64,000 nt of DNA, from contig OZ035963.1 in the NCBI GenBank assembly GCA_964034945.1, positions 43,485,090 to 43,549,089 on the forward strand, in the 5' to 3' direction. A program made the translations under genes and the position numbers. Below, in pieces: positions 4,351 through 64,000 of this stretch. The notes beneath the pieces are model-generated. The model was not told where the DNA came from, did no database searches, and worked only from the letters and a program-made list of their open reading frames with translations. Source of the DNA: Chrysopilus asiliformis (lineage: Eukaryota > Arthropoda > Insecta > Diptera > Rhagionidae). Numbering within the stretch: the first letter of the stretch is position 1; each line of letters opens with the position of its first letter.

Positions 4351-4438
4351 ACAATTTATCGTAAGGAATATTATTTTTACAAATTCGGGCGCCCGGGCGC
4401 CCGAATTTGTAAAAATAATATTCCTTACGATAAATTGT
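4351..4438. repeat. Perfect 88-bp palindrome with GC core
   Basis: It is centred between 4394 and 4395 on GGGCGCCC|GGGCGCCC. Both 44-base arms match exactly, running outward through AAATTCG, TTTTTAC and GGAATATTA into the ATTTATCG unit. Confidence 0.95.
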
Positions 4439-4499
4439 TCTTACATATATATATATTATATATATATATTATATAATTGTTCTTACATATATATATATA

Positions 4500-4690
<191 letters not shown>

Positions 4691-4707
4691 GAAACATCAT
4701 TAATTTA

Positions 4708-5285
4708 TCCCCCCTCCCCCCTACCCTCCCCAACTCCCCCTTCCCCCTCCCCTCCTCTCCACAACTCCCCCTTCCCCTTCCCCCTTCCCCACCCCTTCCC
4801 CCCCCCTTCCCCCTCCCCCCCCCTTCCCCCTCCCCTTCACCCTTCCACCACCCCCCCCCTTCCCCCTCCCCTTCCCCCTTCCACCCCCCCCCTTCCCCCT
4901 TCCCTTCCCCCTTCCACCCCCCCCCTTCCCCCTCCCCCTCCCCCTCCCCTTCCCCCTTCCCCCTTCCCCACCCCCTTCCCCCTCCCCTTCCCCCTTCCCC
5001 CCCCCCTTCCCCCTTCCCCCCCCCCTCCCCTTCCCCCTTCCCCCTTCCCCCTTCCCCCCCCCCTTCCCCCTTCCCCCTTCCCCCCCCCCTTCCCCCTTCC
5101 CCCTTCCCCCTTCCCCCTTCCCCCTTCCCCCTTCCCCCTTCCCCCTTCCCCCTTCCCCCTTCCCCCCCCCCTTCCCCCCCCCCTTCCCCCTTCCCCCCCC
5201 CTTCCCCCTTCCCCCTTCCCCCTTCCCCCCCCCTTCCCCCTTCCCCCCCCCCCACCCCTTACCCCTTCCCCCGCCCCCCACCAAC
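4708..5285. repeat. Polypyrimidine tract, (CCCCCTT)n-like
   Basis: About 570 bp composed almost only of C and T on the plus strand, mostly CCCCCTT and CCCTTCCCC words with rare A. The minus strand has dense G-runs suited to quadruplexes, and the mirror-like purine/pyrimidine asymmetry suits triplex DNA. Pro/Ser-rich or Gly-rich frames here are compositional. Confidence 0.97.
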
Positions 5286-5635
5286 CCATCACCCACCCAA
5301 CCCATCATCCACCCGACCCATCTCCCCAACACTTCCCACAATAATCTTGTTCTTACGATAAATTGTCTTACGATAAATTGTTCTTACGATAAATTGTCTT
5401 ACGATAAATTGTTCTTACGATAAATTGTCTTACGATAAATTGTTCTTACGATAAATTGTTCTTACGATAAATTGTTCTTACGATAAATTGTTTTACGATA
5501 AATTGTTCACGATAAATTGTCTCACGATAAATTGTTTACGATGAATTGACCGGCACCCGTAAACTACATCGCGCCAGGTACGGGTTCAATTCTGAGCGGT
5601 GGCAAAAGATTTTTATTTTATTTTTTTTTTTTTTG

Positions 5636-7140: not shown

Positions 7141-7637
7141 TTAAGAATGCTGATTTACTTTCATTTGATTTTTTTATACAGAAAAAATCGATTTTTTTTT
7201 GAAGACTGTATAGAGCAAAATAAAATTAGCGATGAAATTTCTGAACAGCACATGACTTTCTTACACAACAAAAAATCGGTTCTTTTTTGGAAAATTTCAT
7301 ACAGCAAAATAAAATGAGACAGAAAATAACAAAAATTCGATTTTTTTTTTAAAATTATACAGCAAAATAAAATTACACAGAAAATTTCTGAACAGCACGT
7401 GGCATTCTTATACAGAAAGAATTAAATATCTCTAGCTATTTGTTGTATAAGAAAATCATGTGCTGCTCAGGAATTCAAACCTTAATATGCATATTGACTT
7501 TTATTTGACATTTACTGCTTATTAGCATATATTTTCAAAATTTCAGGTTAAAAAATATATAGGCATAAATACACGACAAAATTACCTTACATATATTATT
7601 GTTTTCACTTCTGTTGGTCCCCAATGACTGCCTGTTT

Positions 7638-8213
7638 TTATACCCGTATGGTGAAACCAAAGGATATACTAACATTGCCTTACAGTTTGTAACGCCAAGA
7701 TCCCGTCATTACACAAAAAAATGAATTACACCAGTGGGTTTAGAATGATAAAAAAAAATTCAATTTTGCATGTCCGTCCGTCTGTCTGTCTGTCCGTCTG
7801 TCTGTCTGTCCGTCTGTCTGTCCGTCCGTCTGTGGCGCGGATTGCGGGCGCACGGATTGAGCTAGAGACTTGAAATTTTGTGCAGATCCTTTTTTCGTAA
7901 AATGCGAGGCTAAGTTCGTTAATGGGCACAAATGGACCATTAGGGGGGGTACCCCCCATACGAACGAAAAGGTTTTTTGTGAATATCTCAAAAACGGTGC
8001 ATCTTATTAAAAAAGTGCAAGAACACAAGTTATTTAGGATATGATTCTACATAAAACTCCCATACATAAAAAGCCGATTGGAATAAATTTTAGAAATTCT
8101 TATTAGAAAATTTGACTTCAAAGTGGAATTTTGATATAACGGTTCGCCGTTCACTTAAATCACCATACGGGTTTTCAATAATTGCGAGATTGGCAATTAT
8201 AGCTTTTGTTATG
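7638..8213 (+). mobile_element. HINE (Helentron-derived), copy A1
   Basis: The 5' end TATACCCGTATGGTGAAACC closes back on AAAGGATATA. The ACCCGTATGGTGA word is repeated inverted near the 3' end (TCACCATACGGGT), followed by a hairpin ATAATTGC-GAGA-TTGGCAATTAT and AGCTTTTGTTATG. The centre has a GTCY microsatellite (7771-7831). Subterminal inverted repeats, a GTCY run and a 3' stem-loop are the defining HINE/DINE-1 layout. It sits in a T-run without target duplication; the empty site is visible at 4090-4105. Confidence 0.85.
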
Positions 8214-8625
8214 TTTTATTACTTAATTTATCTTTCAAATTTATATTCTTACTACTGAATAAGTGTAAACTACATCACGCCAGATACGGATTCAATTCTA
8301 AGCGGTGGCAAAATATTTTTCTTTTTATTTTTTTGTTGAAATTGAGTTTTTTAAACGTAAAATTAAAAATATCTGTTACGCATCGTCTTTTATTGGAAAA
8401 AGTGAAAATCATCTTCTCTGACGCTAGCCCAAACCCCTGAAGATAGACTTGAAACTTTCAGAATATGTCCCAACCATCGCGTAGGCGCTCACTAAGGCGA
8501 GATTTTTCGAAATTTTACCGCTGATGGAGTGAACGGGGGGTAAGGGGGGTTTGGGTGTTTTTAAACCGTGATTTTCGCCATGAATCCTGGTCAATAGGAG
8601 GCTGAAAAGTATCACTCGGAAGCGA

Positions 8626-8850
8626 TTTTGTATGTATTTCTTTCGACACAGCTCCAGCTTAAAATCGATTTTGATTATTCTTTTTTTAAAGGAAGCTCTC
8701 TATCTGTAGATGTGTCCACTTTACTTTTTTCCCATCTATATAATAAAAACTGTAAGGGGACAATTTTTATAATTTTGGATTTTCTCAAAAATATTGACAT
8801 TCATTGATGTATTTGGTCGTATAATACTGATGCCAAAAATGACATTTTTA
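8626..8850 (+). repeat. Start of a third tandem unit, then a HINE-like boundary
   Basis: 8626-8735 repeats the AGCGATTTTGTATG, CTCCAGC and CTCTATCTGTAGATGTGTCC words that open copies 1 and 2, then breaks off at CCCATCTATATAATAAAAAC. From there to 8850 nothing recognisable is present. Confidence 0.6.
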
Positions 8851-9372
8851 TACCCGTATGGTGAAACCAAAGGGTATATTAACTTTGCATTACCGTTTGT
8901 AATGCCAAGACCCCGTCATCGCACAAAAAAATGAATTACACCAGTGTGTTTAGAATGATAAAAAAAATTGAATTTAGCATGTCCGTCTGTGGCCCGGATT
9001 GCGGGCGCACAGATTGAGCTAGAGACTTGAAATTTTGTGCAGATCCGTTTTTAGGAAAATGCGAGGCTAAGTTCGTTAATGGCCACAAATGGTCTATTAG
9101 GCGGGGTGGTACCCCCATACGAACAAAAACGTTTTTTGTAAATATCTCAAAAACGGTGCATCTTATTAAAAAAGTGCAAGAACAAAAGTTATTTAGGATA
9201 TGATTCTAAATAAAACTCCCATACATTAAAATCCGATTGGAACAAATTTTAAAAAATCTTATTGGAAAGTTTGACTTCAAACTGGAATTTTGATACAATT
9301 GTTCGAATTTTGATAGGAATATCACTATACGAGTTTCTAATAATTGCCAGACTGGCAATTATAGGGTCTGTT
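8848..9372 (+). mobile_element. HINE copy A2
   Basis: It starts TATACCCGTATGGTGAAACC and closes with AAAGGGTATA. Body sequences match A1 (GAGCTAGAGACTTGAAATTTT, TATTTAGGATATGATTCTA), with a reduced GTCY tract. The 3' part is diverged (CTATACGAGTTTC) but keeps the AATTGCCAGACTGGCAATTATA hairpin and ends GTTATG. Confidence 0.8.
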
Positions 9373-9716
9373 ATGCTTAAAATTTATGTTTGTCCGTCTG
9401 TCTGTATGTCGGTCGGTATTTCTGTCTGTTTGTCTGAATGTTTGTTCCGGCATCACGCAAAAACAGCACACAGGTACAGTTATTGACAGAATACAGGATA
9501 TGATTCTTTTTGATGCCAATCCCCGTTTCTTCTGATATCTCTTACTCAAGTGTGTCGGATCCAGTTTAATAGCAACCCCTTTCCCTCTCTGTAAACTCCC
9601 TCTCTTGAAACCTCTTTATGCGCTTAAGGGTGTCGGATCCGGTTTTCACCATGAGAGAGGTCACCGCAAGAAAAATGTTTGCTCACTAATATCTACCCCT
9701 CCTTTTTATGTATAGC
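9373..9716 (+). other. Second GTCY-containing fragment and unassigned DNA
   Basis: 9385-9450 is a degenerate GTCTGTCTG/GTCGGTCGG tract followed by GGCATCACGCAAAAACAGC, a word typical of HINE centres. 9510-9700 holds two imperfect direct repeats around GTGTCGGATCC (9553 and 9630). No gene is seen. Confidence 0.45.
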
Positions 9717-10657
9717 TAACGATGGTATCTTTTTTCGAACAAAAAACAGTATATTTCACCTAAAAATTTAAAAAAGCAGTAAATCGATTTGAAAACATAA
9801 CAAAAGCTATAATTGCCAATCTTGCAATCATTGGAGACCCGTATGGTGATATTCGTATCAAAATTCGAACAGTCGTACCAAAATTCCACTTTGAAGTCAA
9901 ACTTTCCAATAAGATTTTTTAAAATTTATTCCAATGGGATTTTGATGTATGGGATTTATGTAGAATCATATCATAAATAACTTTTGTTTCCTGCACTTTT
10001 TCGATAAGATGCACCGTTTTTCAGATATTCGCAAAAAACTTAGCCTCGCATTTTACGAAAAACGGATCTGCGCAAAATTTCAAGTCTCTAGCTCAATCCG
10101 TGCGCCGGAATCCGCGCCACAGACGGACGGACGAAAACACACTGGTGTGTGTGATGACGGGATCTTGGCGTTACAAACGGTAAGGCAAATCTAATATACC
10201 CTTTGGTTTCACCATACGGATATAAAAACAGTATTTTTCGCATTATAAATTTTATTCAATGAAAATTTGTGTTTTTGCTCTTGATTTCGACATTTTTATT
10301 CTTTTTCTTTTAAAATTAACAATGGAAAGCAAAATCAAAGTAACGCGTTCTGAAGAAGGATGAATAATGACAAGACAGTAATCGATGGGGAAAGGAAGAA
10401 GCGAATCTATATAACATGTTGCCATCAATACTTCGCTGTTCGTCGTTTGAATGTATTTACACTTGCCATGTGTTGCCACTGTTTTGTGTTGCCACTGACG
10501 TTTTGTATTGCTATTAATAAATTTGAATTTCGAAACGTTAAAGAATTAAAGTTTTCTGAGTATTTAAATACAGTATTTTGGGAAAAAAGCAATTATGCAG
10601 TATTGGAGTCTGAAAAACAATATAATACTGCGAAAAACAGTATAGATACCATCGTTA
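9717..10657. mobile_element. TIR element with near-perfect 8-bp target duplication
   Basis: The ends are TAACGATGGTATC and GATACCATCGTTA, flanked by TGTATAGC (9709-9716) and TGTATAGT (10658-10665). A HINE (9798-10227) is nested inside. Without it the element is about 510 bp. A 122-codon frame overlapping its right end (10360-10728) has no recognisable motif and is probably chance. Eight-bp duplications suit hAT or P superfamilies. Confidence 0.65.
9798..10227 (-). mobile_element. HINE copy A3
   Basis: Reverse orientation: it begins (left) CATAACAAAAGCTATAATTG, with the hairpin partly decayed (TTGCCAATCTTGCAATCA), and ends GGTTTCACCATACGGATATA. The GTCY tract is nearly gone. It is nested in the TIR element at 9717-10657. 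Confidence 0.8.
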
Positions 10658-10887: not shown

Positions 10888-11146
10888 ATGCATTTGACTC
10901 GAGGCCGAAGGCCGAGTAAAGAGGAAGGCGAGAGCTGAAATATATTTAAATAATTTTACGTAACATCTCCATACATCAAATTCCAACAATTCAAGCGTGA
11001 GGGGCGAGGCCGAAGGCCGAGTAGTTGTGGAGGCCGTAGGCCGACGGGGGCAGGGAGGCCGAAGGCCGACCTGCGGAAGGGGAATGAACCGCGAAGCGGT
11101 TCGGGGCGCAGCCCCTAGTACTTTATTATACTCCGTAGAAGAAAGT
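10888..11146. repeat. GC-rich palindromic cluster ending in a family F tail
   Basis: The short self-complementary word GAGGCCGAAGGCCGA occurs at about 10900, 11007 and 11056, with a variant GGCCGTAGGCCGA at 11032. AACCGCGAAGCGGTT and GGGGCGCAGCCCC follow at 11088-11115. It ends with ACTTTATTATACTCCGTAGA and AGAAAGT (11120-11146), the terminal hairpin also found at 39217-39243. The GC content is sharply higher than the surroundings. Confidence 0.7.
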
Positions 11147-11264
11147 AAAAATTAATGACTTGGATGAACCTGATGGGATGTTATGAGTGTATTTAAGTTC
11201 GGCTCAACATTTGTGAGTAGCAACCGCAAATCCCCACAAGTAGATACTAATTTCTAGTCGGTTT
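11147..11264. other. Short unassigned spacer
   Basis: No feature recognised between the family F tail and the family G start. Confidence 0.5.
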
Positions 11265-12710: not shown

Positions 12711-13042
12711 CCATCAGTGAATAATATTTTGACATAAGAGCTTACAAAGAAAATGGCTCTTTCCCTTCCCCGGTCATATTTCTTTAACCGCTTACTTAAA
12801 CTTAAACTTAACTTTAACTAATAATACCTTTTATTAAAAAATCAAATAACATAAAAAATTTCTAACTTTCACTGTCAATCAGTGTTGCCAGGAAAACGTT
12901 CCCCCTGATCGATATTTAAACATTTCCGAGCATCCAAAAATTAATTTTTATTATTTTTTTTTTTTTTTTGGAAAGAGAGAAAGGGTCTTCAGCAAAAAGG
13001 TTTTTATCGGTTCCAGCTACATAAGTGCTTTCACACCAAATT
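12711..13042. other. Unassigned AT-rich stretch
   Basis: No gene, long repeat or inverted repeat recognised. Confidence 0.5.
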
Positions 13043-13527
13043 TTTTATATCCGTATGGTGAAACCAAAGGGTATATTAAATTTCCCGTACCGTTTGTAAC
13101 GCCAAGATCCCGTCATCACACACAAAAATGAATTGCACCAGTGTGTTTAGAATGATAAAAAAATTGAATTTTGCATGTCCGTCCGTCCGTCTGTGGCGCG
13201 GATTAAGGGCGCACGGATTTAGCTAGAGACTTGAAATTTTACGCCGATCCATTTTTTATAAAATGCAAGGCTAAGTTCGTTAATGGGCAAAAATGGACCT
13301 TTTAAAAACAGTGCATCTTATCAAAAAAGTACAAGAACAAAAGCTATTTAGGATATGATTCTACATAAAAGTCCCATACATCAAAATCCGATTGGAATAA
13401 ATTTTAAAAAATCTTTTTGAAAAGTTAGACTTCAAAGTTGAATTTTGATACAATTGTTCACCGTTCCCTTAAATCACCATACGGGTTTTCAATAATTATA
13501 GGTTTTCTTAATTATAGATTTTGTTAG
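13043..13527 (+). mobile_element. HINE copy A4
   Basis: It starts TATATCCGTATGGTGAAACC with closing AAAGGGTATA and has a short GTCCGTCCGTCCGTCTG tract. The inner part is slightly deleted (GGACC joined to TTTTAAAAACAGTG). It keeps CACCATACGGGTTTTCAATA, but the 3' hairpin has decayed (AATTATAGGTTTTCTTAATTATAG). Confidence 0.8.
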
Positions 13528-16425: not shown

Positions 16426-16808
16426 AACACTGAAAGAATTTTGTCATTTCATTATGATATTTTTGACTTATCAATTTGAAAATCTTATGATTCTTACGGT
16501 TATTTGACGAAAAAAAGTAAAATTGATAGCCAAAATTGTAGCTTTGATATAATTTGTTGTTAAAATAATCTGTGTACATGCTTATTAGTACAACATTTTC
16601 ATATCATTTTTTAATTTCAAATTAATATGTCTATTTTCCATCAAATTTAAAATTAAAATAACAAGTTTTCATGTCCTTTTGACATTTAAATTATGTTTTC
16701 TACATATGATAATATCAACTAGGCATTGTAATTTCCAATATAAAAGTTTAATTTCAAATTGAAAACAAAAAATATAACGTTCAAACATTACATAGTGTTC
16801 AAAATGAA
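16426..16808. other. Unassigned AT-rich stretch
   Basis: Very low GC. No repeat match within the window and no coding signal. Confidence 0.5.
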
Positions 16809-17374
16809 ATTAAAAACATAACAAAAGCTACAATTGCCAATCTGGCAATTATTGAAAACCCGTATGGTGATTTAAGTGAACAGCGAACAGTTGTATCAAA
16901 ATTCCACTTTGAAGTCAAACTTTCCAATAAGATTTTTTTTTAAATTTATTCCAATCGGATTTTGATGTATGGGAGTTTTATGTAGAATCATATCCTAAAT
17001 AACTTTTGTTCTTGGACTTTTTTGATAAGATGCACCGTTTTCGACATATTCACAAAAAACGATTTCGTTCGTATGGGGGGTACCCCCCCTAATGGTCCAT
17101 TTTTGCCCATTAACGAACTTAGCCTCGCATTTTACGAAAAACAGATCTGTGCAAACTTTCAAGTCTCTAGCTCAATCTGTGTGCCCGCAATCCGCGCCAC
17201 AGACAGACGGAGGGACAGACAGACGGACAGACGGACGGACATGCAAAATTCAATTTTTTTTATCATTCTAAACACACTGGTGTAATTCATTTTTTTGTGC
17301 GATGACGGGATCTTGGCGTTACAAACGGTAAGGCAAAGTTAATATGCCCTTTGGTTTCACCATACGGGTATAAA
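16809..17374 (-). mobile_element. HINE copy A5
   Basis: Full-length reverse copy: left CATAACAAAAGCTACAATTG with intact hairpin (AATTGCCAATCTGGCAATT), ACCCGTATGGTGATT, a 17203-17242 GACAGACGGAC microsatellite, and GGTTTCACCATACGGGTATA at the right. It is the best preserved member of family A together with A1. Confidence 0.88.
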
Positions 17375-17540
17375 AAGACAATGAAGAGCTCAATACAGTT
17401 ATTTAAGAGATCGCTGAGCGTATGCTTTCATATTGTTGGCTTGATAATTCTCGTGAAGAGCTCCGAAATTGAAATAAAATATTTTAAGTGAAAGACTGTA
17501 AAGTGAAATTAAAGCAAGCAAATAATAAACTGAGATTCGT

Positions 17541-38479: not shown

Positions 38480-39243
38480 GTATAAAAATATCTGTTGTGA
38501 ACAGCACATGAGATTCTCATACAAAATCCACGTTTCTGCGAAATTTACACTATTACCCGGTAAAAAATTTATTAGTTTATATAAGCATACAAACTTTTAT
38601 TTTACATAATCTGAAATATCTCGATAACGGTAAAAGACATCGATTTACGGTAGAGAATTTTAATACCTTTAGTTTGCAAGCAATTCGAAAAATCTATTTT
38701 TTTTTAGTTTCAATATTTCGATAACGATAATAGATAGCGGATAACGGTAAAATACAAAATTGTCACACATGCTATTCTCTAATTCATCTGCCAAAAACCC
38801 TCCATTTTTCGAGATAATAGCTAAAAACTGATTTTTTAAATAACGGTATATCTCGACGGTATATCTCGATAACGAGATAAGCAGTTCCATAAGCAGTTCG
38901 TTTATTACACGAAAATGTAATAATTTTTATTGTTTCCAACTTTTATCATACATAAAACTACTGAAAAACGAATAGTTTCGGAGTAAATAATAAAAAACAA
39001 AATTGCGATCTTTAAAAAGCCGCCATTTTGATTATTTCCGGTTAACGAATTTTCACCAAAAGTTAATAGGATGGTCCCACTCTAGGATTAAACATGCCCT
39101 GTACACAAACTGACAGACAGGAAGGAATTTTTGTGATAATGCTCCAATCCACTCAGGAGTGCTTGGGAAATATTTTTTAGGCAAAATGCGAGGTCGAAAT
39201 TTTTCATGTATACAATACTTTATTATACTTCGTATAAGAAAGT
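38480..39243 (+). mobile_element. Family F element, unexpanded copy
   Basis: It contains tandem AATATCTCGATAACGGTAAAA-type modules (38606, 38716 and 38830), then TTCCGGTTAACGAATTTTCA, GATGGTCCCACTCTAGG, and GTACACAAACTGACAGACAG at 39101-39120, followed by CTCCAATCCACTCAGGAGTG. It ends in the hairpin ACTTTATTATACTTCGTATA-AGAAAGT (39217-39243). The left and right parts match the flanks of satellite arrays 2 (48170-48978) and 1 (2934-3027). A short CTGACAGACAG stands where those copies have kilobases of satellite. Confidence 0.85.
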
Positions 39244-40775
39244 AACAAACTATCGGAATAAAAAATAATTCTCCTTCACAGAGTATGGAAAAAAATTAAA
39301 TATGGCATACGAAAAAAGGAGAAAGAACCGCTTTACATAGATCACCAGCTGTATTAAACGACCAACCCCATCTATATTCATTAAATATTCATCAACAATC
39401 ACTTGATTTTTTGAATGAACTAAACCTCTCTCTCTCTTCCTTTTTCTCCCAATATTAAAACAACATAAACACTCCTAAAATAAGTAAAGAACAAAAAAAA
39501 CCCCTCGACGGGACACAAAAAAACTCTGATGTGGGTAATTTTTATTCACTCTGACTATGACAGATATTGACACAGACCTGCTGCTCTTAATGGCTATAAA
39601 TGATAACTAAATCTTAGTAAAGCGGAGTTAAATATACGACTGCACCACAAGACGACTATAATGTTTAAGTATTTACCTCGATATGCGGAAAGTTAGTTAT
39701 ACCTAACTAAAGTCGAGCCAAGAAACGAAACCCCCAAGACCAATTTCTCAAACATATAAGGATACACGAATATATGTATGGAAAATCAATAAATTCACTT
39801 TAACCCACAAAGCCACACCCAGAAATTAATTTCAAGTATTTTTCCTAAAGGATCATTTCGGAGTTATTAACTTACATTCATTATGTTGAGGCCTTTTTAT
39901 AGAGCATAAAAAAATTACTCGAATAGTAAAGATCACCAATTCTTTCATCTGATGATTTTTTTTGTTAGCCGGCAATCGGGAAAATTTCAAATTTTTGGGG
40001 TAAAAAATCGCTCCTCTTTTTTCTCCTTCGCTTTAGTCCCCGCTCTGTGTTTCTTTTGTATGCTGGATATGGATATTTTCCCACGATATTATTGCTCTAA
40101 AAATGGAAAAGCTCTGACGCTGATGATTTTCGTGTTTCGGGAGATTTTCCCTTCTAACGGGAAAAAATCCCCTAGTAATTTTTCCTACATTCAAGGATAT
40201 TTAATTTACATGGAGAGTCAGATAAAGTTTTTTTATAAAGCAATCCTGTTTCTGGTAGCATCTGCGCAAGTTACAGATTCAGTCCGCCGCATTTCTGTGC
40301 AGTACAAATTTTTCTATTTTTGCTCTGGCTTCCGAAGGAGCGGAACAAAGAGAAAAGGGACGAGCTCAACTTTGGTTTATTTTTCTCTTGCCTTGCAGGG
40401 CAGGAAATGGGGCTGAGTTCTATTTATTTGGTCTGATAGATTTTGTCCCAGGTACTTAAATCAAATGAAATTCGCACAGAAAGCATGAAAAATCTGTGCT
40501 AAAAACTATAGATAACTTGCTGAATTCTTTACGTTTTGAAAGTAAGCAATATCTTATTTTAGTATATTCTAATATAATAAATTTTTTCAAAGAGAATAAT
40601 TTTCTCTTTTCGTTAACCGAAGGACCTGTTCTTTGAAAATTGCACATTTTATAAAAAAAAAGGGGAAGGAGTAATTTAACTGAAATTTCCTGTACGAGAG
40701 AGTTTTGTAAAATTCAATTTTGAATACTTTTATTAAATTTGAATTTGAATACTTTAATTCGATTTCTGAAAGGCC
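39244..40775. other. Unassigned 1.5-kb stretch
   Basis: Low-complexity CTCTCTCTCTCTTCC at 39427. A 154-codon plus-strand frame at 39952-40416 (rich in Phe/Ser) has no recognised motif, signal or splice context, and I do not call it a gene. Confidence 0.45.
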
Positions 40776-45550: not shown

Positions 45551-46072
45551 GTGATTATACCCGTAGGGTGAAACCAATGGGTATATTAGATTTGTTTGTA
45601 ACGCCAAGATCTCGTCATCACACAAAAAAATGAATTACACCAGTGTGTTTAGAATGATAAAAAAAAAGTTGAATTTAGCATGTCCGTCCGTCCGTCCGTC
45701 TCTGGCGCGGATTGCGGGCGCACGGATTGAGCTAGACTTTTGCGCAGATTGGTTTTTCGTAAAATGCAAGGCTAAGTTCGTTAATGGGCAAAAATGGACC
45801 ATTAGGGGCGGGGGTACCCACGAAAAGGATTTTTGCGAATATCTCAAAAACGGTGCATCTTATCAAAAAAGTGCAAGAACAAAAGTTATTTAGGATATGA
45901 TTCTACATAAAACTCCCATACATCAAAATCCGATTGGAATAAATTTTAAAAAATCTTTTTGGAAAATTTGACTTCAGAATTTTGATACAACTGTTCGCTG
46001 TTCACTTAAATCACCATACGGGTTTTCAATAATTGCCAGATTGGCAATTATAGCTTTTGTTATGTTTTTTAA
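45551..46072 (+). mobile_element. HINE copy A7
   Basis: TATACCCGTAGGGTGAAACC with closing ATGGGTATA, a GTCCGTCCGTCCGTCTC tract, GAGCTAGACTTTTGCGCAG (small deletion), CACCATACGGGTTTTCAATA, an intact AATTGCCAGATTGGCAATT hairpin, and an end at GTTATG in a T-run. Confidence 0.85.
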
Positions 46073-48169: not shown

Positions 48170-48978
48170 TTTTCACTGGCCACAAGTTTTTTCAGACTTT
48201 AGCATGGAAATAATCAAAAAATATCAGTTGTGGTCAACACAAAACTTTCTTCTACAAAATCTACGACCCTGTGCAATTTACGTTATAGCCCTGTCGTATT
48301 GTCAACTCAATACAACCTCCTAATAAATTGTTGGTTCATCCAAAAATATCAAAAACAAAATTTGAGTACAAAATTTGAGATAACTTGAGAACTGTAAAAG
48401 ATATCAATTTAAGGTAAATGGCAAAAATGTAGAAAATGTTAACATCTTTAATAATTCTTTTAACTGATTTGTCGAAAAACCGTTAGTTTGCAAATTATTC
48501 GCAAAAATATGATTTTTTACGTATTAATGAAAATATCTCAATAACGGTAAAATATAACGGATAAAGGTAAAAGACAAAATTGTGCAGAATGCCATTCTCA
48601 TTAATTCACTTCATACATTCAGTCAGCAAAAACCCGGTAATTTTCGAGATAATCGCAAAAAACTGTTTTTTTTTTTTGGAAATAACGGTTTATCTTGATA
48701 ACAGGTTGTGATATCGAGTTATAGCTAAAGACAAAAGTGTGGGAAATTTTATTTTCTCCAACTTTTGTCATACTTAAGGCCACTAAAAAACGCGTAGTTT
48801 GGGAGTAAATCGAGAAAAACTAAATTGCAATTTTTGAAAAACCGCAATTTAGTTTTTCTCGGATACTTCTGGTTAACGGATTTCCACAAAAAGTTGATAG
48901 GATCGTCCCATTTCAGGACCCAACATGCCTATAAAATTTCATGGCGCTAGCTCTATTAGTTTTTGAGAAATCTTGTAC
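48170..48978 (+). mobile_element. Left part of the family F element carrying array 2
   Basis: Tandem AATATCTCAATAACGGTAAAA-like modules (about 48375, 48530, 48690), a 40-bp inverted repeat (GAGAAAAACTAAATTGC ... GCAATTTAGTTTTTCTC at 48812-48861), then TTCTGGTTAACGGATTTCCA, AGGATCGTCCCATTTCAGGA and CTTGTACACAGACTGACAGA. It aligns with 38600-39115 and runs without a break into the satellite. Confidence 0.85.
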
Positions 48979-51900
48979 ACAGACTGACAGACAGACTGAC
49001 AGACTGACAGACTGACAGACTGACAGACTGACAGACTGACAGACTGACAGACTGACAGACTGACAGACTGACAGACTGACAGACTGACAGACTGACAGAC
49101 TGACAGACTGACAGACTGACAGACTGACAGACTGACAGACTGACAGACTGACAGACTGACAGACTGACAGACTGACAGACTGACAGACTGACAGACTGAC
49201 AGACTGACAGACTGACAGACTGACAGACTGACAGACTGACAGACTGACAGACTGACAGACTGACAGACTGACAGACTGACAGACTGACAGACTGACAGAC
49301 TGACAGACTGACAGACTGACAGACTGACAGACTGACAGACTGACAGACTGACAGACTGACAGACTGACAGACTGACAGACTGACAGACTGACAGACTGAC
49401 AGACTGACAGACTGACAGACTGACAGACTGACAGACTGACAGACTGACAGACTGACAGACTGACAGACTGACAGACTGACAGACTGACAGACTGACAGAC
49501 TGACAGACTGACAGACTGACAGACTGACAGACTGACAGACTGACAGACTGACAGACTGACAGACTGACAGACTGACAGACTGACAGACTGACAGACTGAC
49601 AGACTGACAGACTGACAGACTGACAGACTGACAGACTGACAGACTGACAGACTGACAGACTGACAGACTGACAGACTGACAGACTGACAGACTGACAGAC
49701 TGACAGACTGACAGACTGACAGACTGACAGACTGACAGACTGACAGACTGACAGACTGACAGACTGACAGACTGACAGACTGACAGACTGACAGACTGAC
49801 AGACTGACAGACTGACAGACTGACAGACTGACAGACTGACAGACTGACAGACTGACAGACTGACAGACTGACAGACTGACAGACTGACAGACTGACAGAC
49901 TGACAGACTGACAGACTGACAGACTGACAGACTGACAGACTGACAGACTGACAGACTGACAGACTGACAGACTGACAGACTGACAGACTGACAGACTGAC
50001 AGACTGACAGACTGACAGACTGACAGACTGACAGACTGACAGACTGACAGACTGACAGACTGACAGACTGACAGACTGACAGACTGACAGACTGACAGAC
50101 TGACAGACTGACAGACTGACAGACTGACAGACTGACAGACTGACAGACTGACAGACTGACAGACTGACAGACTGACAGACTGACAGACTGACAGACTGAC
50201 AGACTGACAGACTGACAGACTGACAGACTGACAGACTGACAGACTGACAGACTGACAGACTGACAGACTGACAGACTGACAGACTGACAGACTGACAGAC
50301 TGACAGACTGACAGACTGACAGACTGACAGACTGACAGACTGACAGACTGACAGACTGACAGACTGACAGACTGACAGACTGACAGACTGACAGACTGAC
50401 AGACTGACAGACTGACAGACTGACAGACTGACAGACTGACAGACTGACAGACTGACAGACTGACAGACTGACAGACTGACAGACTGACAGACTGACAGAC
50501 TGACAGACTGACAGACTGACAGACTGACAGACTGACAGACTGACAGACTGACAGACTGACAGACTGACAGACTGACAGACTGACAGACTGACAGACTGAC
50601 AGACTGACAGACTGACAGACTGACAGACTGACAGACTGACAGACTGACAGACTGACAGACTGACAGACTGACAGACTGACAGACTGACAGACTGACAGAC
50701 TGACAGACTGACAGACTGACAGACTGACAGACTGACAGACTGACAGACTGACAGACTGACAGACTGACAGACTGACAGACTGACAGACTGACAGACTGAC
50801 AGACTGACAGACTGACAGACTGACAGACTGACAGACTGACAGACTGACAGACTGACAGACTGACAGACTGACAGACTGACAGACTGACAGACTGACAGAC
50901 TGACAGACTGACAGACTGACAGACTGACAGACTGACAGACTGACAGACTGACAGACTGACAGACTGACAGACTGACAGACTGACAGACTGACAGACTGAC
51001 AGACTGACAGACTGACAGACTGACAGACTGACAGACTGACAGACTGACAGACTGACAGACTGACAGACTGACAGACTGACAGACTGACAGACTGACAGAC
51101 TGACAGACTGACAGACTGACAGACTGACAGACTGACAGACTGACAGACTGACAGACTGACAGACTGACAGACTGACAGACTGACAGACTGACAGACTGAC
51201 AGACTGACAGACTGACAGACTGACAGACTGACAGACTGACAGACTGACAGACTGACAGACTGACAGACTGACAGACTGACAGACTGACAGACTGACAGAC
51301 TGACAGACTGACAGACTGACAGACTGACAGACTGACAGACTGACAGACTGACAGACTGACAGACTGACAGACTGACAGACTGACAGACTGACAGACTGAC
51401 AGACTGACAGACTGACAGACTGACAGACTGACAGACTGACAGACTGACAGACTGACAGACTGACAGACTGACAGACTGACAGACTGACAGACTGACAGAC
51501 TGACAGACTGACAGACTGACAGACTGACAGACTGACAGACTGACAGACTGACAGACTGACAGACTGACAGACTGACAGACTGACAGACTGACAGACTGAC
51601 AGACTGACAGACTGACAGACTGACAGACTGACAGACTGACAGACTGACAGACTGACAGACTGACAGACTGACAGACTGACAGACTGACAGACTGACAGAC
51701 TGACAGACTGACAGACTGACAGACTGACAGACTGACAGACTGACAGACTGACAGACTGACAGACTGACAGACTGACAGACTGACAGACTGACAGACTGAC
51801 AGACTGACAGACTGACAGACTGACAGACTGACAGACTGACAGACTGACAGACTGACAGACTGACAGACTGACAGACTGACAGACTGACAGACTGACAGAC

Positions 51901-54900
51901 TGACAGACTGACAGACTGACAGACTGACAGACTGACAGACTGACAGACTGACAGACTGACAGACTGACAGACTGACAGACTGACAGACTGACAGACTGAC
52001 AGACTGACAGACTGACAGACTGACAGACTGACAGACTGACAGACTGACAGACTGACAGACTGACAGACTGACAGACTGACAGACTGACAGACTGACAGAC
52101 TGACAGACTGACAGACTGACAGACTGACAGACTGACAGACTGACAGACTGACAGACTGACAGACTGACAGACTGACAGACTGACAGACTGACAGACTGAC
52201 AGACTGACAGACTGACAGACTGACAGACTGACAGACTGACAGACTGACAGACTGACAGACTGACAGACTGACAGACTGACAGACTGACAGACTGACAGAC
52301 TGACAGACTGACAGACTGACAGACTGACAGACTGACAGACTGACAGACTGACAGACTGACAGACTGACAGACTGACAGACTGACAGACTGACAGACTGAC
52401 AGACTGACAGACTGACAGACTGACAGACTGACAGACTGACAGACTGACAGACTGACAGACTGACAGACTGACAGACTGACAGACTGACAGACTGACAGAC
52501 TGACAGACTGACAGACTGACAGACTGACAGACTGACAGACTGACAGACTGACAGACTGACAGACTGACAGACTGACAGACTGACAGACTGACAGACTGAC
52601 AGACTGACAGACTGACAGACTGACAGACTGACAGACTGACAGACTGACAGACTGACAGACTGACAGACTGACAGACTGACAGACTGACAGACTGACAGAC
52701 TGACAGACTGACAGACTGACAGACTGACAGACTGACAGACTGACAGACTGACAGACTGACAGACTGACAGACTGACAGACTGACAGACTGACAGACTGAC
52801 AGACTGACAGACTGACAGACTGACAGACTGACAGACTGACAGACTGACAGACTGACAGACTGACAGACTGACAGACTGACAGACTGACAGACTGACAGAC
52901 TGACAGACTGACAGACTGACAGACTGACAGACTGACAGACTGACAGACTGACAGACTGACAGACTGACAGACTGACAGACTGACAGACTGACAGACTGAC
53001 AGACTGACAGACTGACAGACTGACAGACTGACAGACTGACAGACTGACAGACTGACAGACTGACAGACTGACAGACTGACAGACTGACAGACTGACAGAC
53101 TGACAGACTGACAGACTGACAGACTGACAGACTGACAGACTGACAGACTGACAGACTGACAGACTGACAGACTGACAGACTGACAGACTGACAGACTGAC
53201 AGACTGACAGACTGACAGACTGACAGACTGACAGACTGACAGACTGACAGACTGACAGACTGACAGACTGACAGACTGACAGACTGACAGACTGACAGAC
53301 TGACAGACTGACAGACTGACAGACTGACAGACTGACAGACTGACAGACTGACAGACTGACAGACTGACAGACTGACAGACTGACAGACTGACAGACTGAC
53401 AGACTGACAGACTGACAGACTGACAGACTGACAGACTGACAGACTGACAGACTGACAGACTGACAGACTGACAGACTGACAGACTGACAGACTGACAGAC
53501 TGACAGACTGACAGACTGACAGACTGACAGACTGACAGACTGACAGACTGACAGACTGACAGACTGACAGACTGACAGACTGACAGACTGACAGACTGAC
53601 AGACTGACAGACTGACAGACTGACAGACTGACAGACTGACAGACTGACAGACTGACAGACTGACAGACTGACAGACTGACAGACTGACAGACTGACAGAC
53701 TGACAGACTGACAGACTGACAGACTGACAGACTGACAGACTGACAGACTGACAGACTGACAGACTGACAGACTGACAGACTGACAGACTGACAGACTGAC
53801 AGACTGACAGACTGACAGACTGACAGACTGACAGACTGACAGACTGACAGACTGACAGACTGACAGACTGACAGACTGACAGACTGACAGACTGACAGAC
53901 TGACAGACTGACAGACTGACAGACTGACAGACTGACAGACTGACAGACTGACAGACTGACAGACTGACAGACTGACAGACTGACAGACTGACAGACTGAC
54001 AGACTGACAGACTGACAGACTGACAGACTGACAGACTGACAGACTGACAGACTGACAGACTGACAGACTGACAGACTGACAGACTGACAGACTGACAGAC
54101 TGACAGACTGACAGACTGACAGACTGACAGACTGACAGACTGACAGACTGACAGACTGACAGACTGACAGACTGACAGACTGACAGACTGACAGACTGAC
54201 AGACTGACAGACTGACAGACTGACAGACTGACAGACTGACAGACTGACAGACTGACAGACTGACAGACTGACAGACTGACAGACTGACAGACTGACAGAC
54301 TGACAGACTGACAGACTGACAGACTGACAGACTGACAGACTGACAGGACTGACAGACTGACAGACTGACAGACTGACAGACTGACAGACTGACAGACTGA
54401 CAGACTGACAGACTGACAGACTGACAGACTGACAGACTGACAGACTGACAGACTGACAGACTGACAGACTGACAGACTGACAGACTGACAGACTGACAGA
54501 CTGACAGACTGACAGACTGACAGACTGACAGACTGACAGACTGACAGACTGACAGACTGACAGACTGACAGACTGACAGACTGACAGACTGACAGACTGA
54601 CAGACTGACAGACTGACAGACTGACAGACTGACAGACTGACAGACTGACAGACTGACAGACTGACAGACTGACAGACTGACAGACTGACAGACTGACAGA
54701 CTGACAGACTGACAGACTGACAGACTGACAGACTGACAGACTGACAGACTGACAGACTGACAGACTGACAGACTGACAGACTGACAGACTGACAGACTGA
54801 CAGACTGACAGACTGACAGACTGACAGACTGACAGACTGACAGACTGACAGACTGACAGACTGACAGACTGACAGACTGACAGACTGACAGACTGACAGA

Positions 54901-57900
54901 CTGACAGACTGACAGACTGACAGACTGACAGACTGACAGACTGACAGACTGACAGACTGACAGACTGACAGACTGACAGACTGACAGACTGACAGACTGA
55001 CAGACTGACAGACTGACAGACTGACAGACTGACAGACTGACAGACTGACAGACTGACAGACTGACAGACTGACAGACTGACAGACTGACAGACTGACAGA
55101 CTGACAGACTGACAGACTGACAGACTGACAGACTGACAGACTGACAGACTGACAGACTGACAGACTGACAGACTGACAGACTGACAGACTGACAGACTGA
55201 CAGACTGACAGACTGACAGACTGACAGACTGACAGACTGACAGACTGACAGACTGACAGACTGACAGACTGACAGACTGACAGACTGACAGACTGACAGA
55301 CTGACAGACTGACAGACTGACAGACTGACAGACTGACAGACTGACAGACTGACAGACTGACAGACTGACAGACTGACAGACTGACAGACTGACAGACTGA
55401 CAGACTGACAGACTGACAGACTGACAGACTGACAGACTGACAGACTGACAGACTGACAGACTGACAGACTGACAGACTGACAGACTGACAGACTGACAGA
55501 CTGACAGACTGACAGACTGACAGACTGACAGACTGACAGACTGACAGACTGACAGACTGACAGACTGACAGACTGACAGACTGACAGACTGACAGACTGA
55601 CAGACTGACAGACTGACAGACTGACAGACTGACAGACTGACAGACTGACAGACTGACAGACTGACAGACTGACAGACTGACAGACTGACAGACTGACAGA
55701 CTGACAGACTGACAGACTGACAGACTGACAGACTGACAGACTGACAGACTGACAGACTGACAGACTGACAGACTGACAGACTGACAGACTGACAGACTGA
55801 CAGACTGACAGACTGACAGACTGACAGACTGACAGACTGACAGACTGACAGACTGACAGACTGACAGACTGACAGACTGACAGACTGACAGACTGACAGA
55901 CTGACAGACTGACAGACTGACAGACTGACAGACTGACAGACTGACAGACTGACAGACTGACAGACTGACAGACTGACAGACTGACAGACTGACAGACTGA
56001 CAGACTGACAGACTGACAGACTGACAGACTGACAGACTGACAGACTGACAGACTGACAGACTGACAGACTGACAGACTGACAGACTGACAGACTGACAGA
56101 CTGACAGACTGACAGACTGACAGACTGACAGACTGACAGACTGACAGACTGACAGACTGACAGACTGACAGACTGACAGACTGACAGACTGACAGACTGA
56201 CAGACTGACAGACTGACAGACTGACAGACTGACAGACTGACAGACTGACAGACTGACAGACTGACAGACTGACAGACTGACAGACTGACAGACTGACAGA
56301 CTGACAGACTGACAGACTGACAGACTGACAGACTGACAGACTGACAGACTGACAGACTGACAGACTGACAGACTGACAGACTGACAGACTGACAGACTGA
56401 CAGACTGACAGACTGACAGACTGACAGACTGACAGACTGACAGACTGACAGACTGACAGACTGACAGACTGACAGACTGACAGACTGACAGACTGACAGA
56501 CTGACAGACTGACAGACTGACAGACTGACAGACTGACAGACTGACAGACTGACAGACTGACAGACTGACAGACTGACAGACTGACAGACTGACAGACTGA
56601 CAGACTGACAGACTGACAGACTGACAGACTGACAGACTGACAGACTGACAGACTGACAGACTGACAGACTGACAGACTGACAGACTGACAGACTGACAGA
56701 CTGACAGACTGACAGACTGACAGACTGACAGACTGACAGACTGACAGACTGACAGACTGACAGACTGACAGACTGACAGACTGACAGACTGACAGACTGA
56801 CAGACTGACAGACTGACAGACTGACAGACTGACAGACTGACAGACTGACAGACTGACAGACTGACAGACTGACAGACTGACAGACTGACAGACTGACAGA
56901 CTGACAGACTGACAGACTGACAGACTGACAGACTGACAGACTGACAGACTGACAGACTGACAGACTGACAGACTGACAGACTGACAGACTGACAGACTGA
57001 CAGACTGACAGACTGACAGACTGACAGACTGACAGACTGACAGACTGACAGACTGACAGACTGACAGACTGACAGACTGACAGACTGACTGAGACTGACA
57101 GACTGACAGACTGACAGACTGACAGACTGACAGACTGACAGACTGACAGACTGACAGACTGACAGACTGACAGACTGACAGACTGACAGACTGACAGACT
57201 GACAGACTGACAGACTGACAGACTGACAGACTGACAGACTGACAGACTGACAGACTGACAGACTGACAGACTGACAGACTGACAGACTGACAGACTGACA
57301 GACTGACAGACTGACAGACTGACAGACTGACAGACTGACAGACTGACAGACTGACAGACTGACAGACTGACAGACTGACAGACTGACAGACTGACAGACT
57401 GACAGACTGACAGACTGACAGACTGACAGACTGACAGACTGACAGACTGACAGACTGACAGACTGACAGACTGACAGACTGACAGACTGACAGACTGACA
57501 GACTGACAGACTGACAGACTGACAGACTGACAGACTGACAGACTGACAGACTGACAGACTGACAGACTGACAGACTGACAGACTGACAGACTGACAGACT
57601 GACAGACTGACAGACTGACAGACTGACAGACTGACAGACTGACAGACTGACAGACTGACAGACTGACAGACTGACAGACTGACAGACTGACAGACTGACA
57701 GACTGACAGACTGACAGACTGACAGACTGACAGACTGACAGACTGACAGACTGACAGACTGACAGACTGACAGACTGACAGACTGACAGACTGACAGACT
57801 GACAGACTGACAGACTGACAGACTGACAGACTGACAGACTGACAGACTGACAGACTGACAGACTGACAGACTGACAGACTGACAGACTGACAGACTGACA

Positions 57901-60900
57901 GACTGACAGACTGACAGACTGACAGACTGACAGACTGACAGACTGACAGACTGACAGACTGACAGACTGACAGACTGACAGACTGACAGACTGACACTGA
58001 CAGACTGACAGACTGACAGACTGACAGACTGACAGACTGACAGACTGACAGACTGACAGACTGACAGACTGACAGACTGACAGACTGACAGACTGACAGA
58101 CTGACAGACTGACAGACTGACAGACTGACAGACTGACAGACTGACAGACTGACAGACTGACAGACTGACAGACTGACAGACTGACAGACTGACAGACTGA
58201 CAGACTGACAGACTGACAGACTGACAGACTGACAGACTGACAGACTGACAGACTGACAGACTGACAGACTGACAGACTGACAGACTGACAGACTGACAGA
58301 CTGACAGACTGACAGACTGACAGACTGACAGACTGACAGACTGACAGACTGACAGACTGACAGACTGACAGACTGACAGACTGACAGACTGACAGACTGA
58401 CAGACTGACAGACTGACAGACTGACAGACTGACAGACTGACAGACTGACAGACTGACAGACTGACAGACTGACAGACTGACAGACTGACAGACTGACAGA
58501 CTGACAGACTGACAGACTGACAGACTGACAGACTGACAGACTGACAGACTGACAGACTGACAGACTGACAGACTGACAGACTGACAGACTGACAGACTGA
58601 CAGACTGACAGACTGACAGACTGACAGACTGACAGACTGACAGACTGACAGACTGACAGACTGACAGACTGACAGACTGACAGACTGACAGACTGACAGA
58701 CTGACAGACTGACAGACTGACAGACTGACAGACTGACAGACTGACAGACTGACAGACTGACAGACTGACAGACTGACAGACTGACAGACTGACAGACTGA
58801 CAGACTGACAGACTGACAGACTGACAGACTGACAGACTGACAGACTGACAGACTGACAGACTGACAGACTGACAGACTGACAGACTGACAGACTGACAGA
58901 CTGACAGACTGACAGACTGACAGACTGACAGACTGACAGACTGACAGACTGACAGACTGACAGACTGACAGACTGACAGACTGACAGACTGACAGACTGA
59001 CAGACTGACAGACTGACAGACTGACAGACTGACAGACTGACAGACTGACAGACTGACAGACTGACAGACTGACAGACTGACAGACTGACAGACTGACAGA
59101 CTGACAGACTGACAGACTGACAGACTGACAGACTGACAGACTGACAGACTGACAGACTGACAGACTGACAGACTGACAGACTGACAGACTGACAGACTGA
59201 CAGACTGACAGACTGACAGACTGACAGACTGACAGACTGACAGACTGACAGACTGACAGACTGACAGACTGACAGACTGACAGACTGACAGACTGACAGA
59301 CTGACAGACTGACAGACTGACAGACTGACAGACTGACAGACTGACAGACTGACAGACTGACAGACTGACAGACTGACAGACTGACAGACTGACAGACTGA
59401 CAGACTGACAGACTGACAGACTGACAGACTGACAGACTGACAGACTGACAGACTGACAGACTGACAGACTGACAGACTGACAGACTGACAGACTGACAGA
59501 CTGACAGACTGACAGACTGACAGACTGACAGACTGACAGACTGACAGACTGACAGACTGACAGACTGACAGACTGACAGACTGACAGACTGACAGACTGA
59601 CAGACTGACAGACTGACAGACTGACAGACTGACAGACTGACAGACTGACAGACTGACAGACTGACAGACTGACAGACTGACAGACTGACAGACTGACAGA
59701 CTGACAGACTGACAGACTGACAGACTGACAGACTGACAGACTGACAGACTGACAGACTGACAGACTGACAGACTGACAGACTGACAGACTGACAGACTGA
59801 CAGACTGACAGACTGACAGACTGACAGACTGACAGACTGACAGACTGACAGACTGACAGACTGACAGACTGACAGACTGACAGACTGACAGACTGACAGA
59901 CTGACAGACTGACAGACTGACAGACTGACAGACTGACAGACTGACAGACTGACAGACTGACAGACTGACAGACTGACAGACTGACAGACTGACAGACTGA
60001 CAGACTGACAGACTGACAGACTGACAGACTGACAGACTGACAGACTGACAGACTGACAGACTGACAGACTGACAGACTGACAGACTGACAGACTGACAGA
60101 CTGACAGACTGACAGACTGACAGACTGACAGACTGACAGACTGACAGACTGACAGACTGACAGACTGACAGACTGACAGACTGACAGACTGACAGACTGA
60201 CAGACTGACAGACTGACAGACTGACAGACTGACAGACTGACAGACTGACAGACTGACAGACTGACAGACTGACAGACTGACAGACTGACAGACTGACAGA
60301 CTGACAGACTGACAGACTGACAGACTGACAGACTGACAGACTGACAGACTGACAGACTGACAGACTGACAGACTGACAGACTGACAGACTGACAGACTGA
60401 CAGACTGACAGACTGACAGACTGACAGACTGACAGACTGACAGACTGACAGACTGACAGACTGACAGACTGACAGACTGACAGACTGACAGACTGACAGA
60501 CTGACAGACTGACAGACTGACAGACTGACAGACTGACAGACTGACAGACTGACAGACTGACAGACTGACAGACTGACAGACTGACAGACTGACAGACTGA
60601 CAGACTGACAGACTGACAGACTGACAGACTGACAGACTGACAGACTGACAGACTGACAGACTGACAGACTGACAGACTGACAGACTGACAGACTGACAGA
60701 CTGACAGACTGACAGACTGACAGACTGACAGACTGACAGACTGACAGACTGACAGACTGACAGACTGACAGACTGACAGACTGACAGACTGACAGACTGA
60801 CAGACTGACAGACTGACAGACTGACAGACTGACAGACTGACAGACTGACAGACTGACAGACTGACAGACTGACAGACTGACAGACTGACAGACTGACAGA

Positions 60901-63900
60901 CTGACAGACTGACAGACTGACAGACTGACAGACTGACAGACTGACAGACTGACAGACTGACAGACTGACAGACTGACAGACTGACAGACTGACAGACTGA
61001 CAGACTGACAGACTGACAGACTGACAGACTGACAGACTGACAGACTGACAGACTGACAGACTGACAGACTGACAGACTGACAGACTGACAGACTGACAGA
61101 CTGACAGACTGACAGACTGACAGACTGACAGACTGACAGACTGACAGACTGACAGACTGACAGACTGACAGACTGACAGACTGACAGACTGACAGACTGA
61201 CAGACTGACAGACTGACAGACTGACAGACTGACAGACTGACAGACTGACAGACTGACAGACTGACAGACTGACAGACTGACAGACTGACAGACTGACAGA
61301 CTGACAGACTGACAGACTGACAGACTGACAGACTGACAGACTGACAGACTGACAGACTGACAGACTGACAGACTGACAGACTGACAGACTGACAGACTGA
61401 CAGACTGACAGACTGACAGACTGACAGACTGACAGACTGACAGACTGACAGACTGACAGACTGACAGACTGACAGACTGACAGACTGACAGACTGACAGA
61501 CTGACAGACTGACAGACTGACAGACTGACAGACTGACAGACTGACAGACTGACAGACTGACAGACTGACAGACTGACAGACTGACAGACTGACAGACTGA
61601 CAGACTGACAGACTGACAGACTGACAGACTGACAGACTGACAGACTGACAGACTGACAGACTGACAGACTGACAGACTGACAGACTGACAGACTGACAGA
61701 CTGACAGACTGACAGACTGACAGACTGACAGACTGACAGACTGACAGACTGACAGACTGACAGACTGACAGACTGACAGACTGACAGACTGACAGACTGA
61801 CAGACTGACAGACTGACAGACTGACAGACTGACAGACTGACAGACTGACAGACTGACAGACTGACAGACTGACAGACTGACAGACTGACAGACTGACAGA
61901 CTGACAGACTGACAGACTGACAGACTGACAGACTGACAGACTGACAGACTGACAGACTGACAGACTGACAGACTGACAGACTGACAGACTGACAGACTGA
62001 CAGACTGACAGACTGACAGACTGACAGACTGACAGACTGACAGACTGACAGACTGACAGACTGACAGACTGACAGACTGACAGACTGACAGACTGACAGA
62101 CTGACAGACTGACAGACTGACAGACTGACAGACTGACAGACTGACAGACTGACAGACTGACAGACTGACAGACTGACAGACTGACAGACTGACAGACTGA
62201 CAGACTGACAGACTGACAGACTGACAGACTGACAGACTGACAGACTGACAGACTGACAGACTGACAGACTGACAGACTGACAGACTGACAGACTGACAGA
62301 CTGACAGACTGACAGACTGACAGACTGACAGACTGACAGACTGACAGACTGACAGACTGACAGACTGACAGACTGACAGACTGACAGACTGACAGACTGA
62401 CAGACTGACAGACTGACAGACTGACAGACTGACAGACTGACAGACTGACAGACTGACAGACTGACAGACTGACAGACTGACAGACTGACAGACTGACAGA
62501 CTGACAGACTGACAGACTGACAGACTGACAGACTGACAGACTGACAGACTGACAGACTGACAGACTGACAGACTGACAGACTGACAGACTGACAGACTGA
62601 CAGACTGACAGACTGACAGACTGACAGACTGACAGACTGACAGACTGACAGACTGACAGACTGACAGACTGACAGACTGACAGACTGACAGACTGACAGA
62701 CTGACAGACTGACAGACTGACAGACTGACAGACTGACAGACTGACAGACTGACAGACTGACAGACTGACAGACTGACAGACTGACAGACTGACAGACTGA
62801 CAGACTGACAGACTGACAGACTGACAGACTGACAGACTGACAGACTGACAGACTGACAGACTGACAGACTGACAGACTGACAGACTGACAGACTGACAGA
62901 CTGACAGACTGACAGACTGACAGACTGACAGACTGACAGACTGACAGACTGACAGACTGACAGACTGACAGACTGACAGACTGACAGACTGACAGACTGA
63001 CAGACTGACAGACTGACAGACTGACAGACTGACAGACTGACAGACTGACAGACTGACAGACTGACAGACTGACAGACTGACAGACTGACAGACTGACAGA
63101 CTGACAGACTGACAGACTGACAGACTGACAGACTGACAGACTGACAGACTGACAGACTGACAGACTGACAGACTGACAGACTGACAGACTGACAGACTGA
63201 CAGACTGACAGACTGACAGACTGACAGACTGACAGACTGACAGACTGACAGACTGACAGACTGACAGACTGACAGACTGACAGACTGACAGACTGACAGA
63301 CTGACAGACTGACAGACTGACAGACTGACAGACTGACAGACTGACAGACTGACAGACTGACAGACTGACAGACTGACAGACTGACAGACTGACAGACTGA
63401 CAGACTGACAGACTGACAGACTGACAGACTGACAGACTGACAGACTGACAGACTGACAGACTGACAGACTGACAGACTGACAGACTGACAGACTGACAGA
63501 CTGACAGACTGACAGACTGACAGACTGACAGACTGACAGACTGACAGACTGACAGACTGACAGACTGACAGACTGACAGACTGACAGACTGACAGACTGA
63601 CAGACTGACAGACTGACAGACTGACAGACTGACAGACTGACAGACTGACAGACTGACAGACTGACAGACTGACAGACTGACAGACTGACAGACTGACAGA
63701 CTGACAGACTGACAGACTGACAGACTGACAGACTGACAGACTGACAGACTGACAGACTGACAGACTGACAGACTGACAGACTGACAGACTGACAGACTGA
63801 CAGACTGACAGACTGACAGACTGACAGACTGACAGACTGACAGACTGACAGACTGACAGACTGACAGACTGACAGACTGACAGACTGACAGACTGACAGA

Positions 63901-64000
63901 CTGACAGACTGACAGACTGACAGACTGACAGACTGACAGACTGACAGACTGACAGACTGACAGACTGACAGACTGACAGACTGACAGACTGACAGACTGA
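48979..64000. repeat. Satellite array 2, (CAGACTGA)n, at least 15 kb
   Basis: About 1,880 tandem octamers continuing past the window edge. I saw only four irregularities: GACAGACAGACTG at the left edge (about 48985), an extra G at about 54346 (GACAGGACTGAC), CTGACTGAGACTG at about 57085-57096, and a 2-base loss at about 57995 (CTGACACTGAC). The minus strand is stop-free in every frame, so the indels do not close it; the enormous frame it yields (repeat SVCQSVSL) is not a protein gene. Confidence 0.98.

Follow-up and report, generated by a model that had tools for sequence, protein, structure and literature searches.

Kilobase octamer arrays at the internal microsatellite position of a dispersed element in the fly Chrysopilus asiliformis

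We analysed a window of 64,000 nucleotides from the genome of Chrysopilus asiliformis (Diptera, Rhagionidae; contig OZ035963.1 of assembly GCA_964034945.1, positions 43,485,090 to 43,549,089 of the forward strand; the positions below are counted from the first letter of the window). The window contains three copies (A, B, and C) of a dispersed element, here called family F, and two long arrays of the octamer GACTGACA, one joined to copy B and the other to copy C. Both arrays lie at the position of an internal microsatellite of F, and we consider it likely that they grew in place from a short internal tract inside old F copies; the birth of the arrays at this point is the simplest reading of their structure. 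Homogenisation wipes out the beginnings of satellites with short units and so makes their origin difficult to trace. In this window, both arrays still have transposon sequence next to them, and a relative that has not expanded is also present.

Array C (1237-2939, plus strand) is 1.7 kb long, and array B (48982-64000, plus strand) continues past the last base of the window, so that its length of at least 15 kb is a lower bound. Tandem Repeats Finder (TRF) gave a period of 8 for both arrays, with 212.4 copies and 99% matches in C (1240-2938) and 1,877.2 copies and 99% matches, unfinished at the window end, in B. The first-pass annotation, made from the letters of the window, had counted 210 and over 1,800 copies, which agrees with the values from TRF and unit spacing (about 212 and about 1,877). 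The exact octamer makes up 209 of the 210 gaps between successive GACT words in array C and 1,871 of 1,876 in array B. Scored against a perfect periodic string, array B had no substitution in 15,019 bp (95% upper bound of 2e-4 per site, given zero events) and four indel sites (+4 at 48993, +1 at 54347, +2 at 57090, and -2 at 57997). Array B thus has the form of a satellite, being long (kilobases at least), homogeneous, and arranged head to tail. Array C has no substitution across 1240-2927, and its last unit is degenerate (GACTGAAAGACA at 2928-2939). As the first-pass annotation had noticed, both arrays have an irregular 12-base unit, GACTGACAGACA, at their left edge (at 1244 in C and 48982 in B); in array B it is the +4 indel site. 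Outside the arrays, the octamer, searched as ACTGACAG on both strands, occurs in the window only at the seed of copy A (39109-39120, see below) and at 13547.

Copy A (38480-39245, plus strand) is an unexpanded F, in which the two flanks adjoin at a 12-base seed tract, ACTGACAGACAG (39109-39120, plus strand). In blastn, the query 38480-39243 matched 48476-48929 (69.5%, E 1.6e-51), 48217-48294 (73%, E 5e-7), and 48367-48411 (80%, E 2e-5), left of array B, and 2917-3030 (82%, E 5e-26), right of array C; over the aligned pieces, copy A has 69.5-80% identity to copy B and 82-88% to copy C. By blastn and alignment, copy B, the left flank of array B, extends over 48212-48981 (plus strand; left limit by eye), and copy C, the right flank of array C, over 2940-3027 (plus strand). 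The sequence from about 3028 is another repeat family, which is also found at 6065 (blastn). Alignment of both flanks to 38480-39243 had been named beforehand as a point on which the proposed origin of the arrays depended, and both align; the E values of 1.6e-51 and 5e-26 rule out chance similarity.

At the seed, 20 of the 21 positions of TGTACACARACTGACAGACAG are common to copies A and B. The junction of copy A, TGTACACAAACTGACAGACAG, is followed by the right flank of F, and that of array B, TGTACACAGACTGACAGACAG, by octamers, while the end of array C, ...GACTGAAAGACATTTTT, corresponds to ...GACAGGAAGGAATTTTT in copy A. The flanks of copy A therefore meet where array B starts and array C ends, as the first-pass annotation had proposed. 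This boundary falls inside F, near position 630-640 of 764, and not at its end, and a GACN tract stands at an equal alignment position in all three copies, like the fixed internal microsatellite of HINE (Helentron-associated) and DINE-1 elements. The adjoining of F and octamers might alternatively mean that F inserted beside or into an unrelated octamer array, and other elements do adjoin an array, as shown by a LINE (long interspersed nuclear element) that abuts array C. However, both boundaries lie at one internal point of F, which insertion beside an array does not explain, and copy A joins the flanks through the seed. Insertion beside an existing array is ruled out by the internal boundary and contradicted by copy A, and taken as a whole this explanation is very improbable.

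The first-pass annotation described one family in three states, and an unexpanded, a 1.7-kb, and a 15-kb copy were indeed seen, but each array has only one F flank. To the left of array C there is, instead of F, a LINE fragment on the minus strand (1-1236, by translation and Pfam), so that an F left flank there, if present, would be beyond the window, and the right side of array B is beyond the window end. The 5' side of the LINE abuts array C. The fragment has an apurinic/apyrimidinic (AP) endonuclease domain (Pfam Exo_endo_phos, E 3.2e-8) and a 205-aa frame (610-1224), which we took as ORF1 (open reading frame 1) by its position; this frame had no Pfam match, and no relatives were found at E <= 0.001 among 119 candidates. 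The first ATG of the LINE (1224, minus strand) is 12 nt from octamer array C, and the frame extends upstream through the array without a stop, which is a single case.

One F flank per array, as in the one-sided intermediates of an oyster Helitron satellite described in the available text of PMC12628747, and an identical octamer at two loci would also fit the spread of an existing octamer satellite into F by ectopic conversion or extrachromosomal repeat circles, with the seed as homology. However, both arrays of the window start or end at the F seed position, and the one-sidedness is accounted for by the window end and the LINE; we regard such spread as unlikely.

In genome_contigs, (CAGACTGA)3 was found in 26 stretches, all in records titled as bacteria, and none of these 26 matched the F copies in blastn at E <= 0.01. 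Twenty-three of them (L014-L016, L018-L030, L032, L034-L039) belong to one metagenome-assembled genome (MAG), RPQK01, titled Acidobacteria, in which 35 short dispersed arrays of at least four units are present in 140 kb, mostly of CTGACAGA (144) and CTGACAAA (140). Thus, the octamer can multiply without F, and its identity alone proves nothing; it is the flanks that carry the argument. The public collections contain at least 120 stretches of (GACA)7, and 32 bases of the octamer repeat had no match in viral_contigs.

Copy A and the flank of array B (copy B) disagree at about 30% of the aligned sites (best blastn piece), whereas array B has no substitution, and thus the amplification, or the last homogenisation, of the array would be much younger than the insertion. 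We infer growth in two stages, hairpin-assisted at first and then by bulk amplification. F would be an old non-coding dispersed element whose interior carries, always at one point, a short microsatellite of the GACN type. At least two of the F copies would have had in this tract the mixed octamer GACA-GACT, which is capable of self-pairing, and these tracts would have expanded in place long after the insertion of F. The first stage would probably be hairpin-assisted slippage or repair, and the second may have been unequal exchange or another bulk amplification, which would give near-identical octamer arrays of 1.7 kb and at least 15 kb.

Since the octamer mixes GACA and GACT, CTG faces CAG on self-folding, with every fourth base mismatched (A.A or T.T). 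In predicted DNA folding of 160 nt of repeat, GACAGACT gave -44.1 and -33.2 kcal/mol for its two strands, compared with -33.1 for CAG, -60.4 for CTG, 0 for GACA, and -19.8 and -8.2 for GACG. Among the ten GACX-GACY combinations it ranks second, and only GACCGACG is stronger. A pattern search found ten further GACN tracts in the window, with lengths of 16 to 64 bp; the predicted energy is 0 for eight of them and -1.4 and -1.5 kcal/mol at best for the remaining two, whereas the first 64 bp of the two arrays give -12.9 and -9.6 kcal/mol. A speculative and rather doubtful extension is that the change of every second GACA to GACT turns a repeat without predicted self-pairing into a self-complementary, CTG/CAG-like hairpin repeat, and that this transposon-carried switch seeds repeated independent runaway expansions. 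If this is true, the switch would give rise to new satellites in a natural parallel to the repeat expansions of disease, and the hairpin idea would predict which transposon microsatellites become satellites.

Several points weigh against growth in place or against the part given to hairpins. The hairpin argument was devised after the octamer was seen. By fold energy, on one strand, the octamer is only the 41st of the 210 circular arrangements of its own bases, and the weak folding of the other GACN tracts is partly due to their shortness and mixed sequence. The evidence consists of three F copies in one 64-kb window, none of which has an array flanked by F on both sides, and the length and homogeneity of the arrays rest on the assembly sequence. 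Furthermore, the irregular unit common to B and C may be inherited, and the short tract of copy A may be a contraction, this copy being diverged and deleted, so that its seed may differ in length from the ancestral one.

Copy A had been presented as the seed from which the arrays derive. Its 12-base tract does lie between both flanks; however, the copy is about 30% different from B and lacks 43 bp of copy B (48929-48971) directly before the seed, much of which falls in a block of copy B (48909-48956) resembling the core of another family, G. Because of these bases missing beside the seed, copy A is a decayed relative and not a pristine progenitor. The same deletion, together with an irregular 12-base unit that both arrays hold as if inherited, would suit a course of events in which F transposed with long arrays already and copy A lost its array by contraction or deletion, that is, decay and not birth. 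However, zero substitutions in 15 kb against a flank difference of about 30% would need later homogenisation or amplification anyway, and we consider an array-bearing ancestor rather improbable. It could also be asked whether the length and perfection of the arrays are artefacts of assembly. The homogeneous 15-kb array lies at the window end, and its irregularities are indels only, a pattern that consensus errors can also produce; on the other hand, each of the two arrays has F on one side and an edge unit that is degenerate or irregular, and such an artefact is improbable.

Growth in place from the internal tract remains our preferred reading, and the rightward growth suggested in the first-pass annotation is not supported, because array C has one more octamer than array B to the left of the irregular unit. 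This extra octamer rules out strictly rightward growth, and the right edge of array C also keeps a degenerate unit.

F had further been called HINE-like, which we could follow only in part. Subterminal inverted repeats of 12-15 bp were not found in F when the first 70 nt were compared with the last 130 nt of copy A, the true ends of F not being fixed by other copies (best score 8, null mean 7.4, p = 0.41; with 40 nt, p = 0.95). However, the core of copy B beside the microsatellite resembles family G as a conserved block would: none of 1000 shuffles reached the score in comparison with four of the five G copies tested (p = 0.295 for the fifth). The same core gave p = 0.011 with an element at 21259 and p from 0.14 to 0.70 with four other elements, and copy A, without most of the core block, gave p from 0.049 to 0.81 with the same five G copies. 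Since the test for subterminal repeats failed and the ends of F are uncertain, we do not class F as a HINE and describe it as a dispersed element with a HINE-type core. Neither a word from the F right flank nor the core pattern shared by F and G had a match in the public collections.

Family G itself fits the HINE structure in that five of six copies have subterminal inverted repeats at p <= 0.01, in the form of 11-13 bp of ACCCGTATGGTGA. These are 13/13 bp in two copies, 12/13 in one, 11 bp in two, and 9/10 in one (p = 0.26). Their distance is 4-12 nt to the 5' end and 42-54 nt to the 3' end when the blastn limits are taken as ends; the spacing given for HINEs in the available text of PMC4067079 is 2-4 and 38-60. 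GACN tracts are present in five of the six copies. Within the last 60 nt, three copies have an exact 3' palindrome whose arms measure 8-11 bp, and the other three have none with arms of at least 5 bp (no shuffle comparison). A HINE-like example, by structure (self-blastn, subterminal test), is at 7635-8217 (plus strand), with a (GACR)n microsatellite at 7771-7834; the other copies (self-blastn) are at 8845-9385 (no tract found), 9792-10231, 13042-13526, 16807-17376, and 45555-46069.

HINEs carry a palindrome 8-35 bp from the 3' end. As to the ends of F, copy A has, at one end and the other, the short palindromes TTATAC-TTC-GTATAA at 39223-39237 and CTGTT-GTG-AACAG at 38492-38504, with ATGAGATTCTCAT nearby (3' end not established, no shuffle comparison). 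The 30-bp motif at its right end, TACTTTATTATACTTCGTATAAGAAAGTAA (39216-39245), recurs once in the window, at 11119-11148 with 2 mismatches, where 0 are expected; this motif also terminates a GGCCGAAGGCCGAG-rich stretch at about 10900-11118, and F and the stretch may share a terminus. The motif was found at 13 loci of the public collections; by eye, 12 of these lie in unrelated sequence that is nearly identical from locus to locus, and the remaining one in a different sequence. A suggestive similarity between the left end of F and the 3' end of G (p from 0.003 to 0.41 over five G ends for copy A) was absent in copy B (p from 0.43 to 0.87) and was not used.

Other elements in the window include a foldback-like element at 4149-5568. 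Its inverted arms of 217 nt (94% complementary) consist largely of 16/31-bp tandem repeats and enclose (AT)n, (TG)n, and C-rich tracts. A mariner transposase frame at 23170-24084 matches a 334-aa protein with 98% identity over 95% of the frame, and is 73% identical to proteins of Drosophila palustris and Trachymyrmex septentrionalis among the best 120 of 3,377 matches. DUF659 relatives showed 36-49% identity among the best 120 of 271, and several of the named ones are aphid proteins.

Among the papers listed in topical searches, titles and abstract beginnings showed no case in which a tract like that of F had expanded into a 15-kb array of such an octamer, which is not proof of absence, and six of the sixteen forms of the octamer, searched as whole words, gave one unrelated paper. 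Coates in 2011 reportedly described (GTCY)n microsatellites in lepidopteran miniature inverted-repeat transposable elements (MITEs), Wilder and Hollocher in 2001 reportedly described mini-me elements with microsatellites, and Dias in 2015 is said to have described central tandem repeats of Drosophila DINEs that turned into satellites. The satellite units of Drosophila DINEs and of the oyster satellite Cg170/HindIII are much longer than 8 bp. The lepidopteran MITEs and mini-me elements, like F, bear GTCY or similar microsatellites, and the available text on them mentions no kilobase octamer arrays. The (GAA)n repeat of Friedreich ataxia, according to the text available, was born in an Alu and is likewise a transposon-borne simple repeat with great expansion, although the repeat, the host, and the element differ.

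As far as the available text of the sources goes, GTCY repeats of insect MITEs are counted among transposon-born microsatellites (PMC6947457, PMC9659126), and DINE-1 has a GTCY-rich microsatellite of variable length (PMC2374699; see also PMC4067079). DINE-1/HINE elements are, like those studied here, dispersed and non-coding, with a GTCY/RGAC microsatellite of variable length in a conserved block (PMC2374699, PMC4067079, in the parts accessible); family G resembles them by its subterminal repeats and F by the core beside the tract in copy B. F differs from them, so far as these sources describe them, in that subterminal inverted repeats were not found in copy A and in that the tract is a GACA-GACT octamer of kilobases and not a microsatellite of variable length. 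The accessible part of PMC12628747 states that the expansion of short arrays within transposons can give rise to satellites, with Helitrons/Helentrons as a common example. The central tandem repeats of Drosophila DINEs and oyster Cg170/HindIII, as presented in the available text, resemble the present case in that an array inside a Helitron-type element became a satellite (PMC9659126, PMC12628747), and the oyster satellite also has one-sided junctions of element and array (PMC12628747). The present arrays differ from them in their unit of 8 bp and in their place at the microsatellite position. Thus, satellites from arrays inside transposons are a known kind, and it is the scale and the clarity of the Chrysopilus arrays that stand out.

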